Under the pieces are notes generated by a model. It made no database searches, had not been told where the DNA came from, and saw only the letters and a program-made list of their open reading frames with translations. Both the position numbers and the translations under genes were made by a program. Positions 48,406 through 57,427 of a stretch of DNA of 64,000 nt are shown here, piece by piece; within the stretch, counting starts at the first letter, position 1; each line of letters opens with the position of its first letter. The DNA is from an uncultured bacterium (lineage in GTDB: Bacteria; Verrucomicrobiota; Kiritimatiellia; PWTM01), in the NCBI GenBank assembly GCA_937139365.1, contig CAKZPT010000041.1, positions 1 through 64,000 on the forward strand. The letters run 5' to 3'.

Positions 48406-49089
48406 TCAACCCCCGCCGGCCCCCTCTCCGGGCTGCAAGCGTTCGTGCCGCGCGATCCGCCCCTCCAGAAGATAGATCACATCCTCCGCGATGTTGACCG
48501 CGTGGTCGGCGATCCGCTCGAAGTGGCGCGCTATGGCCATCAGATGCAGATCCTGATCCAGCCGCGTCGGGTTGTTCCGGATGCGACTCTTGACCTGCTC
48601 CACCACCGCCCGGTCGGCAACGTCCACGGCGTCGTCCGCCTCGATCACCTCCCGCGCCTTCCGGGCGTCGAGGTCGATCAGCGCGTCGATGCTGCGGCGC
48701 AGCATCGAGATGGTCTGATCGGCCAGCGGCCGAAAGTCGATCGCCGGCCCCGACGGCGGTTCGCGACAGATCTCGACCACCCGCTCAGCAATGTGCACGG
48801 CCAGGTCGCCGATCCGTTCGAGGTCGCCGTTGAGCCTCATCACGGCGACGATGAAGCGCAGGTCGGTGGCCACCGGCTGGTGCAGCGCTAGGACCTTGAG
48901 GCAGTCCTCCTCGATCTCCACCTCGTACCGGTCGATGACGTCGTCCTCCTCGATCAGCCGTCGGGCGAGGGCGGTGTCGCGCGACGCGAGCGCCGCGACG
49001 GCGTCCTGCACCGTCCGCTCCGCGCGCGCGCACATCTCGAGGATCCGCTGTTTCAGCCGGTTGATCTCGCGTTCGAGGTGCACCGACAT
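48406..49089 (-). CDS. phoU: Phosphate transport system regulator PhoU
   Basis: Two-repeat PhoU pattern: VEIEEDCLKVLALHQPVATDLRFIVAVMRLNGDLERIGDLAVHIAE; IRNNPTRLDQDLHLMAIARHFERIADHAVNIAEDVIYL. Confidence 0.95.
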   Translation of the reverse strand: MSVHLEREINRLKQRILEMCARAERTVQDAVAALASRDTALARRLIEEDDVIDRYEVEIEEDCLKVLALHQPVATDLRFIVAVMRLNGDLERIGDLAVHIAERVVEICREPPSGPAIDFRPLADQTISMLRRSIDALIDLDARKAREVIEADDAVDVADRAVVEQVKSRIRNNPTRLDQDLHLMAIARHFERIADHAVNIAEDVIYLLEGRIARHERLQPGEGAGGG

Positions 49090-49137: not shown

Positions 49138-50238
49138 TTAGAATTTCGCGGTCAGGTCCACCTGCAGCCTCCGGTAGTGGTGCGGGTCGTCCAGCCGCTT
49201 CTCGTCGAGGAAATACGACACCGACGCCTGCAGGCCCTTCATCAGCTGCACGGCCGCGCACAGCTTGTGGCCGCGCGCGTCCACGCCGCCGCCGAAGGAG
49301 TCGGAGTCGGTGAACGCGCCGGGGAACGAATCGGCCTCCAGGCGCCGGTAGTCGTAGCCGACCTGCACGCTGCCGGGCTTCGACATACGGCCGAGGCGCG
49401 CGCCGATCGTGACGGCGTCGTTCTCGTCGTCGACATCAGTGTTCACCGCCCACGCGGCAAAAAGGTGAAGCGGCAGGCCGACGTCCACGTCGAGCGCCGC
49501 CAGCGCCTCGACGGTGGTGAAGCCGGTCACGTACACCGTATTGGTCACCCCGTCAATGACCGCAGTCCGCGTCGAGTTCCCGTAGGAGCGGCCGGCGCCC
49601 TGCCAGTCGAAGACCGGACGGCCCTCCATTTCGGTGAACGCGTACACGGAGCCGGCCAGGGTCATCTGGACGCGCTCGTGCAGGCGGCCGGCCAGCGCGA
49701 GCTGTCCGCCGTACATCATCGAGTCGTCGTCGGAGCTGCGTTCCTGGATCCAGTGGTACGCGCCAACCGCCGAGGCCCGCCACAACTCGCCGACGCCCCA
49801 GGCAGCCGCCACGCCCTCGGGGGTGTAGTCGGCGTCCCAGAGATAGTCCCCAGCGGTCAGGAACGGCTGGACCATCTTGCCGGCGACGAGCCGGGTGCCG
49901 GGCATCGCCCGGGGCGTCCACTCGATCGATGCCACATCGAGGAAGACACTCTTCTTGGCCCCGAAGTCCCTGAGGGTCCTGTTGCCCGAGATCGGATCGG
50001 CCACGCCGTTTTTCTGCTCGGCCGTCGTCAGCCGCAGCGCGAGCGTGACCTCCTCGTTGGCCGGCGCGGTCAGGCCGGCCCGCACACGGAGCCGGTTGTG
50101 GTAGCGCTCATCCCGGCCCTCCTCGTCGACGTGCTCGAACCGATACCGCACATCGGCCTGGGGCTTGAGGTCGTCGAACCACGCCGCCGTCGCGGCCACC
50201 GCCCATGCCGTCATTGCGATCCCCGCCGTTGCTTTCAT
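49138..50238 (-). CDS. Outer-membrane porin-like beta-barrel protein
   Basis: Signal peptide, alternating amphipathic strands, terminal RRLQVDLTAKF (C-terminal Phe); sits in the pho cluster. Confidence 0.7.
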   Translation of the reverse strand: MKATAGIAMTAWAVAATAAWFDDLKPQADVRYRFEHVDEEGRDERYHNRLRVRAGLTAPANEEVTLALRLTTAEQKNGVADPISGNRTLRDFGAKKSVFLDVASIEWTPRAMPGTRLVAGKMVQPFLTAGDYLWDADYTPEGVAAAWGVGELWRASAVGAYHWIQERSSDDDSMMYGGQLALAGRLHERVQMTLAGSVYAFTEMEGRPVFDWQGAGRSYGNSTRTAVIDGVTNTVYVTGFTTVEALAALDVDVGLPLHLFAAWAVNTDVDDENDAVTIGARLGRMSKPGSVQVGYDYRRLEADSFPGAFTDSDSFGGGVDARGHKLCAAVQLMKGLQASVSYFLDEKRLDDPHHYRRLQVDLTAKF

Positions 50239-50311: not shown

Positions 50312-50383
50312 CTAACGCGGGATTAACACTCATCTCACTTGCCACTAACCGTGTTAGCACGGCGTTTGTTTTCTGTTAGCCGC
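50312..50383. promoter_or_regulatory. Candidate Pho-box arrays: 11-bp-spaced direct repeats in two opposing orientations
   Basis: Plus strand 50312 CTAACGC-GGGA, 50323 TTAACAC-TCAT, 50334 CTCACTT-GCCA, 50345 CTAACCG; opposing 50351 GTGTTAG-CACG, 50362 GCGTTTG-TTTT, 50373 CTGTTAG. The arrays meet at CTAAC-CGT-GTTAG. Confidence 0.6.
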
Positions 50384-52194
50384 GGCCCGTCCATGTCCAT
50401 TCCCGGCCACCGGGCCGTTCTGCGGGACCGCGAACCAGAAACGGCTACCCCGGCCGGGTTCGCTCTCCACCCCGACCTCCCCACCGTGCGCCGCGACAAT
50501 GTGTTTGACGATCGCCAGCCCGAGTCCTGTGCCGCCCTCCCGCCGGCTGCGCGACTTGTCCACCCGGTAGAACCGCTCGAAGAGCCGGGGCAAATGGCGC
50601 GCCTCGATGCCCGGGCCGTGATCCACGACGCGCCAGCGAACCCGCCCGCCCACGAGACCGCACTGAACGAGCACCTCTTCGCCGGGGGGGCTATGCTTGA
50701 TCGCGTTGTCGAGCAGGTTGACCAACGCCCGGCCGAGCAGGTCGGGGTCGGCTCGCAGGAGGACGTCCGGCGGCACGTCGGCCCGGAGCGACACGCTGCG
50801 CTCCGCGGCGAGCTGGCCGCACACCTCGACGGCGTCCGTGGTGATGTCCGCCGCGGAGACCTCCGCGACGCGCAGCGTCACCGCCTCGGCCATCTGCTCG
50901 ACGCGAGACAACTGAAGCAGGTCGTCCACTAGCGTTTGAAGTCGCTGCGTCTGCCTCAGCGCGATCCCGAGGAAGCGCCGCTGCTCCTCCGCCGAGGGCG
51001 GGCGGGGGTCGAGCACAGTCTCGAGGAAGCCGCGGATCGAAGTCAGGGGCGTCTTCAGCTCGTGCGAGACGTTCGCGACGAATTCGCGCCGGAGGGTCAT
51101 CAGCCGGTGCAGGTTGGTTAGGTCGTTGAACACCATCACGGCGCCCCGCACGCGGCCGTCGGCGTCTTGCAGGGGAGCAGCCCGGCCGTGAACGAAGCGC
51201 TCGGACTCGCCATCCCGGATGGTGGCGCTGGTCTCGGCGGTGCGCCGCTCGCGCAACGCGGACAGGAGGAGTTCCTGAAAAGGAACCACTCGCACACAGG
51301 CCCGCAGGTCCTGGCCGCGCCGCCACTGCGTGCCCGCTGCCAGCAGCTCCGCCGCCCGCCCGTTGGCAAACAGAAGGCGCTCCTGGGCGTCGATGGCCAA
51401 CACCCCCTCGCTTAGGCTCTGCAACAGCGTCTCGACCTCGCGCTGCTGGGTCTCCAGCGCGCGCATGCGAACGTCGAGTTCGCTGGCCATCTGGTTCATC
51501 GCCTCGGCGACCTCGGCGATCTCCCGGATCGGCGGCGGGGCGACACGGTGGTCGAGCCGCCCGGCCGCGAACCGCCGCGCCGCATCGGTCATCGCCGCCA
51601 TCGGCCGCAGGATGCGAGCGGCCAGCAGGAGCGCGACCGCCGCGACCAGCGCCGCCGCTCCCGCCGTGGCTGCCAGCATCCGTCGCCGCAGCGCGGCGAT
51701 CGCGGCCTCCATGCGGTCTACCGCCACCGCCGTCCGCAACGCCCCCACGACCGCCTCGCCGCGGCGGAGCGGAAGGGCCAGATACACCGTCGGCAGCCCG
51801 GTCGTGTCGCTGTGCCGCACGTCGCGGCCCTCCCTGCCCTCAAGGGCCGCGGCGACCTCCGGCCGGCCGTGGCGCAGCATCATCCGCGAGGCGGCGGCCG
51901 CGGAGTCCGCCAACACCCGGCCGGAGGCCGCAATGACCGTCACGCGGGTGTCCGGCGAGATGGCGCGCGCCAGCCGCGCCAACTCCGCCGCAGCGCGCTC
52001 GTCAAAGGCGTCGAACCGGTCGGACTGCAGCAGGGTTTGCAGGAATCGGTTTTCGACGCGGAGGCGCTCCTCGGTCTGGCGCAGATGGAAGTTGCGGACG
52101 GCACGCTCCGCCCACGTGCCGACCGCCGTGCCGGTCACAGCGGCGGCCACCAGCAGCGGCGCGACCAGCGTCCAGGCGATCGGCGTTCGCCGCA
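50354..52194 (-). CDS. phoR: Sensor histidine kinase PhoR
   Basis: HAMP, PAS and kinase regions: FVANVSHELKTPLTSIRGFLETVL, LVNLLDNAIKHSP, GTGLGLAIVKHIVAAHGG; adjacent to phoB. Confidence 0.9.
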
Positions 52195-52881
52195 TTACTT
52201 CTCCCGGAACCGATACCCCACCCCGCGCACCGTCTCGATCAGGTCCGCATTGCGGCCGAGCTTCCGCCGCAGGTTGACCATCTGCACGTCCACGGAGCGG
52301 GCGGTCACAGGATAGTCCGTCCCCTTCACGGCGTCCACGATCTGCTCCCGGCTGAACACCCATCCCGGCTTCGAGGCCAGGAACCGCAAAATCCCGAACT
52401 CGGTCGCCGTCAGCTCCAGCGGGCGGCCCTTCAGCGTCGCCTCGTGCCGCGCCGGATGGATGCGGAGATCACCGACCTCGATGGGCTCGTCGGTCATCGC
52501 TAGCCGCTGCCGGCGCCGAAACACGTTGCGGATGCGCGCCACCAGCACTTTGGGGTTGAACGGCTTGGTGATGTAGTCCTCCGCCCCCAGCCGCAACCCG
52601 GACACGATATCGCTCTCGTCGCCCTTCGCGGTCAACATGATGATCGGCAGCGTGCAGGTGCGCCCGTCCGATTGCAGCAAGCGGGCGACCTCCATCCCGT
52701 CGAGGCCGGGCAGCATCAGGTCGAGCAGCACCAGGTCGAACCCGCCGTTGCGGGCCATTTCCAGCGCCCGCTCGCCGTTGTCCACCCCCGTGACGCGGAA
52801 CCCTTCCTTCGTCAGCGTGTACCGGACCAGCTCCTGGATGTCCTCGTCGTCCTCGACGACCAGTATGTGTTCGCGAACCAT
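52195..52881 (-). CDS. phoB: PhoB-type response regulator
   Basis: HILVVEDDEDIQELVRYTLTKEGFRV, DLVLLDLMLPGLDGMEV, AEDYITKPFNPKVLVARI, winged helix TATEFGILRFLASKPGWVFSREQIVDAV. Confidence 0.93.
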   Translation of the reverse strand: MVREHILVVEDDEDIQELVRYTLTKEGFRVTGVDNGERALEMARNGGFDLVLLDLMLPGLDGMEVARLLQSDGRTCTLPIIMLTAKGDESDIVSGLRLGAEDYITKPFNPKVLVARIRNVFRRRQRLAMTDEPIEVGDLRIHPARHEATLKGRPLELTATEFGILRFLASKPGWVFSREQIVDAVKGTDYPVTARSVDVQMVNLRRKLGRNADLIETVRGVGYRFREK

Positions 52882-56845: not shown

Positions 56846-57427
56846 TCACCGGTGGAAGGGGCGCGGTGACGGCAAACGCCCGGCGGCGACGAGGGACGCG
56901 AGTACCCCCGCGGGATCGCGCCGCAACCACCCGAGCTCGTGTTCAAAATTCGAGGTGAACACGCCGCGGCCGACGGCGGCCTCGATTTCGGCCGGCGCCC
57001 AAAACTTCGCGTCGGCGATCTCCACAGGGTCCGGCCGGAACGGCCCGTCGTGGACGGCGATGAAGCTGCGCACGTACTCGGTCTCACGATCGGAGCGCCA
57101 CAGGTACTCGTGCGACGGCCGCAGGTCCGCGGCGATTCCCAGCTCCTCCGCCATCTCCCGGCGGGCGCCTTCCGCCGGATCCTCGCCCGGCCGGAGATGG
57201 CCGCCCACCGACGTGTCCCACCGCCCCGGCTGGATGTCCTTGTCCGGCGAGCGACGCTGCAACAACAGCCGGCCGAGCCGGTCAAACACGAACACGTGGA
57301 CGGCAGGATGGATCAGCGCCGGGTTAGAGTGACATTCGCGCCGCGGCGCGCGCCCGACGGGCCGACCGCGCTCGTCCACGACGTCGAAGACCTCCTCCCC
57401 TGATTCCGGCGGCGTGTTCGCGTTCAT
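56846..57427 (-). CDS. NUDIX hydrolase (IDI-like)
   Basis: GHLRPGEDPAEGARREMAEELGI NUDIX box; VHVFVFDRLGRLLLQRRSPDKDIQPGRWD. Confidence 0.9.
   Translation of the reverse strand: MNANTPPESGEEVFDVVDERGRPVGRAPRRECHSNPALIHPAVHVFVFDRLGRLLLQRRSPDKDIQPGRWDTSVGGHLRPGEDPAEGARREMAEELGIAADLRPSHEYLWRSDRETEYVRSFIAVHDGPFRPDPVEIADAKFWAPAEIEAAVGRGVFTSNFEHELGWLRRDPAGVLASLVAAGRLPSPRPFHR

Follow-up and report, generated by a model that had tools for sequence, protein, structure and literature searches.

A Porin_5-family porin gene is preceded by two face-to-face arrays of 7-bp half-sites, each running at exact 11-bp steps, and the sequence supports reading both as PhoB-type sites, that is, as CTAAC-type Pho boxes. 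They lie in the window, by which we mean the whole 64,000-nucleotide stretch of DNA analyzed here, at the end of a phoR-like gene. The minus-strand (coding) array is the conserved, predicted activating Pho box of the porin. The best explanation for the pair, to which we give a probability of roughly one in two on the basis of the sequence and of analogy with a known promoter, is that phosphorylated PhoB (PhoB~P) would activate porin-phoU from the coding array and repress it from the overlapping opposing array, leaving an output that is capped, pulsed, or off at high PhoB~P.

Two opposed arrays at the phoR-porin junction

The genes and sites concerned are as follows.

48406 to 49089, minus strand: phoU, downstream of the porin (TIGR02135, above cut-off)
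49138 to 50238, minus strand: Porin_5-family outer-membrane porin, the target gene (PF16930, E 3.2e-30)
50312 to 50351, plus strand: opposing array of four half-sites, CTAACGC-ggga-TTAACAC-tcat-CTCACTT-gcca-CTAACCG, over the expected porin -10/start; probable PhoB repression site
50345 to 50357, strand not applicable: junction CTAACCGTGTTAG, the meeting point of the innermost opposed half-sites
50351 to 50379, minus strand: coding-strand Pho box of three half-sites, CTAACAG-aaaa-CAAACGC-cgtg-CTAACAC; expected activation site for porin-phoU
50354 to 52300 (start approximate), minus strand: phoR-like sensor kinase (HAMP, PAS, HisKA, HATPase; PnpS/PhoR models, below cut-offs)
52195 to 52881, minus strand: phoB-like response regulator, the presumed binder (best model TIGR02154, below cut-off)

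On the minus strand, the gene order is phoB, phoR, Porin_5 porin, phoU; the names PhoB and PhoR are those of the best models, which score below their curated cut-offs, and PhoU scores above its own. The genome encodes only two OmpR/PhoB-type (Trans_reg_C) proteins, the second of which adjoins its own kinase elsewhere. A matrix scan found no array upstream of phoB. The region upstream of a second porin paralogue of this genome (30% identical; L143, upstream of G000:C11:63664-64596) is without a CTAAC array, so the motif tracks the pho-cluster porin rather than porins of this family in general.

Re-reading the letters returned all seven half-sites at the coordinates given in the preliminary description, converging and in exact 11-bp register: CTAACGC (50312), TTAACAC (50323), CTCACTT (50334), and CTAACCG (50345) on the plus strand and, as read on the plus strand, GTGTTAG (50351), GCGTTTG (50362), and CTGTTAG (50373) on the minus strand. 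Its statement that the site overlaps the phoR stop and precedes the porin start was also correct: the stop codon TAA (50356-50354) lies inside the minus-array half-site CTAACAC, and the porin ATG is at 50238. The minus array thereby doubles as the last phoR codons (...A-N-R-K-Q-T-P-C-stop). The array ends lie 74 bp (opposing) and 113 bp (coding) upstream of the ATG, and the coding array spans about -141 to -115 from it, a strand and distance much the same as those of the porin boxes in same-family relatives. The innermost opposed 7-mers have base 50351 in common, and 9 bp are shared between their 11-bp units; because each PhoB monomer takes up an 11-bp unit (review, PMC4415409), both innermost units are unlikely to be filled at once if the footprint is 11 bp.

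The arrays stand far above chance

A half-site matrix was derived by expectation-maximization on the porin promoters of relatives, with the window left out, and runs at 11-bp steps were scored. The plus array reached 31.8 bits and the minus array 25.4 bits. When the 430-bp promoter was order-1 shuffled 4000 times, no array exceeded 18.8 bits, and 60 shuffled versions of the 64-kb window gave an average of 13.2 bits (maximum, 19.0); both the arrays and their significance are direct readings of the sequence. The matrix scan found no other array above the shuffled maximum in the 64-kb window. At 57312-57338 on the minus strand, an array-like run (CGAAT/CTAAC/CTGAT) inside a Nudix-like reading frame scores 18.6 bits, within the range of the shuffled windows.

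Genome-wide counts were obtained by pattern searches. The strict motif YTAAC-N6-YTWAC occurs at three places in the 2.82-Mb genome, namely, the porin locus, pstS, and C10:8886 (TTAACGGATTTCTAAC); the last adjoins a hairpin at gene 3' ends and was taken as chance. YWMAY three times at 11-bp steps gave six matches (three at the porin locus, one at pstS, and two with no visible pho link), and the reversed control of this pattern gave 0 matches genome-wide. The shuffles and reversed-pattern controls together rule out a chance origin of the arrays.

CTAAC is the Pho box of the lineage

The motif was sought at another pho promoter, as the preliminary description had suggested, and is present at the only pstS of the genome (a PBP_like_2 gene) as CTAACTG-gaat-TTAACCG-tttg-TTCACAA, in coding orientation, 105 to 79 bp before the ATG. 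Among relatives in the class, coding-strand arrays occur at 58/78 porin promoters (chance, 0.3) and 13/28 pstS promoters (chance, 0.08), counts drawn from related genomes that are not independent events; 29 of the porin promoters counted also trained the matrix, so it is the pstS promoters that form the independent test. The porin-trained matrix recovers these untrained pstS promoters in coding orientation, with opposing arrays at 0/28 in the same scan, and wherever a porin or pstS promoter has a single array, that array is almost always on the coding strand. Because coding CTAAC arrays recur in this way at the porin and pstS promoters of relatives, the coding array of the window is read as the porin's conserved activating box, and its conserved Pho-box role can be seen directly in these promoters.

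The attributes of a Pho box are found here in the form of 7-bp direct repeats with 4-bp spacers, presence at a core Pho gene of the same genome (pstS), and a coding array at orthologous promoters. Like the canonical Escherichia coli Pho box (CTGTCAT twice), the arrays have 7-bp half-sites, 4-bp spacers, and an 11-bp period and lie upstream of pstS/phosphate genes; they differ from it in a core of CTAAC/CTCAC/TTAAC rather than TGTCA, in having two to four half-sites, and in being opposed. Bacillus subtilis PhoP sites, TT(A/C/T)ACA, belong to a different phylum but resemble those of the window in their TTAACA-like core, 11-bp period, and several half-sites. The E. coli consensus CTGTCAT is not matched, the core here being CTAAC; Pho-box consensus sequences differ between species (PMC4415409).

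The proposal that this is a PhoB-type site is thus strengthened by the 11-bp period, the phoB-phoR-porin-phoU cluster, the motif at pstS, and its class-wide occurrence at porin and pstS promoters. Other parts of the preliminary description need revision. A face-to-face CTAAC array had been called an unusual Pho-box variant, but CTAAC is the lineage's normal Pho box and the opposition has a precedent in E. coli phoB. The arrays had also been described together as a double array; both are present, but they are not equivalent, since the porin's conserved Pho box is the minus array alone. Likewise, presence in close relatives holds for the coding array, which is kept, and fails for the opposing array in three same-genus genomes. 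Within the window's genus, half-sites drift from CTAAC to CAAAC: one same-genus porin promoter (L016, G001) has three successive CAAAC half-sites at 11-bp steps, comparable to the CAAACGC of the window's minus array.

Opposing arrays recur at phosphate-uptake promoters

The three same-genus genomes that lack the opposing array (L015-L017) include one that is 68% complete, and their lack of it suggests that this array is recent or easily lost. Among the other porin promoters, opposing arrays score at 3/78 (chance, 0.3), and one porin promoter of the window's own family (L039) carries three opposing half-sites as a downstream array. A search of 345 class genomes for the face-to-face pattern gave matches in 3 genomes against control matches in 2, a raw count not enriched over the control; the back-to-back control pattern gave one match. 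In two of the three genomes (L086 and L087), the arrays precede Na/Pi cotransporter genes, and in L086 they run into the stop codon of phoR, similarly to those of the window; the third match (L088) precedes an apparent ribosomal protein gene. Upstream of another porin (L110; G102:C17), the arrays stand back to back, the coding one immediately preceded by the opposing one, and a divergent promoter may lie there.

That opposing arrays recur at promoters for phosphate uptake is directly visible in the Pontiella-like genus of L086 and L087 (g67, family f32), where 14/29 Na/Pi cotransporter promoters have opposing arrays (chance, 0.03) and 10/29 have coding arrays, counted without the L171 row, which duplicates another gene's promoter. 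Their common form is CTAACaaaacgCTAACaattaaggATTAGcaaaccGTTAGgattctGTTAGgTTC, of which the opposing part is the best conserved and often stands alone; where both arrays are present, the opposing one again covers the expected -10/start. These arrays (L145, L147, L149, L159, and others) resemble those of the window in motif and in the placing of the opposing array across the region where the start is expected, and in L149 they occupy the same place, at the end of phoR and before an uptake gene. They have two coding and three opposing half-sites with an 8-bp junction gap, compared with a 3-bp gap in the window, and many of these promoters carry the opposing array only, whereas the window porin has both. 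Across the L145-L174 cotransporter promoters, conserved opposing-only CTAAC arrays start 57-76 bp before the start codon and are followed by a conserved GTTC-n-CCGCGCA-TTT. Cotransporters with opposing arrays only are possibly PhoB repressed, judging by their promoters; this would fit the situation in Sinorhizobium, where low-affinity phosphate transport is regulated reciprocally to Pst (PMC8829014).

Proposed activation and brake at the porin promoter

We infer PhoB binding, the position of the start, and the direction and size of the effect of the opposing array. Upon phosphate starvation, PhoB~P would fill the three coding half-sites (50379-50351) in tandem and recruit RNA polymerase to a start about 25-30 bp beyond the coding array, and the resulting porin-phoU mRNA would come on top of phoBR read-through. 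The four opposing half-sites (50312-50351) would cover the expected -10 and start, and their innermost unit would overlap the polymerase-proximal activating half-site; PhoB~P on this array would then block polymerase and compete with the activating site, so that high PhoB~P would cap output, turn it into a pulse, or shut it off. The positions of the porin -10 and start are taken solely from the spacing in relatives: in three of these (L029, L031, and L042), a TAATCA-like -10 follows the last coding CTAAC at 12 bp, and on this spacing the -10/start of the porin would fall within the opposing array. The same 12-bp spacing to the -10 is found in E. coli Pho promoters. No sigma-70-like promoter is recognizable in the window's G+C-rich porin promoter region.

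The closest known system is the E. coli phoB promoter, which likewise has a sense Pho box and a face-to-face antisense PhoB site (Gao and Stock 2018, PMC6194859); there, the antisense site lies at the -10 and represses at high PhoB~P, as established by EMSA and mutants (PMC6194859). In both promoters, the antisense-strand array is downstream of the sense Pho box and touches it. However, the E. coli brake consists of two weak half-sites 10 bp apart and acts on phoB itself, whereas the candidate brake in the window has four well-matched half-sites of the CTAAC motif at exact 11-bp steps, sits on the porin-phoU promoter, and outscores the sense array. Since, in contrast to the weak E. coli brake, the opposing array outscores its activating counterpart, repression may dominate, and the promoter may be mostly off at full PhoB~P. 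Repression by a related regulator is also described for Bacillus subtilis, in which PhoP~P represses some promoters, tagAB/tagDEF, according to a reference as it is cited in PMC4415409.

Read as a dual-action PhoB promoter, the double array is a variant of a kind already known, with a lineage-specific motif. Sequence by itself thus yields a Pho box for a large class that is mostly uncultured, and the phosphate regulon of this class becomes mappable. The double array suggests that an activate-then-repress PhoB promoter, known from E. coli phoB, has also arisen in a second phylum, where it serves uptake genes and is much stronger. More tentatively, the orientation of the arrays might form a class-wide code, coding CTAAC arrays activating and opposing arrays over the start repressing, with combinations giving repressed, capped, or pulsed outputs under phosphate starvation; if true, some cotransporters would carry the opposing-only version and the window porin both arrays. 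Cultured Pontiella strains would make the brake idea testable.

Other readings of the opposing array

The opposing array could instead be a reverse-oriented activating site, all seven half-sites forming one extended platform with a start downstream (porinward) of 50312, which we consider unlikely. The array is strong, it is the better conserved one at the Pontiella-like cotransporters, and many of those promoters have it alone, starting 57-76 bp upstream of the ATG with an AT-rich stretch after it, all of which would suit an activator. However, single arrays at porin and pstS promoters are almost always on the coding strand, and no -10-like hexamer lies at the right distance after 50312. Moreover, PhoB contacts sigma-70 in one orientation, which counts against activation in reverse.

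We give less weight to the plus array being a bystander, in the sense of a surplus PhoB site, arisen by chance or in decay, that leaves expression unaffected, as its lack of conservation in the same genus might suggest; the many intragenic PhoB sites of E. coli that are transcriptionally inert (PMC10294691) count for this reading too. Against it, four consecutive half-sites score far above any shuffle and are placed over the expected core promoter, and opposing arrays are recurrent and conserved in another family.

It is somewhat less probable again that the plus array, which is oriented as an activator of rightward transcription over phoR, starts PhoB-dependent antisense transcription into phoR as negative feedback on the kinase. 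Opposing arrays accompany the downstream uptake gene whether phoR or, as in the other family, another cotransporter gene stands upstream, so they track the uptake gene and not phoR, and on this ground antisense feedback was rejected; in addition, many phoR-porin junctions have no opposing array, and a weak terminator-like hairpin at 50349-50362 faces rightward transcription. This hairpin, on the plus strand and antisense to phoR, reads CCGTGTTAGCACGG and then CGTTTGTTTT.

Finally, although face-to-face CTAAC/GTTAG repeats are inherently complementary and CCGTG-CTAA-CACGG can pair, an RNA hairpin acting as attenuator or terminator between phoR and the porin is very improbable and was rejected, given an ordinary folding energy (z = -0.65, with 54/200 shuffles folding as well or better), no Rfam match, no U-tract on the transcribed strand, and arrays in relatives that are as a rule of a single orientation.
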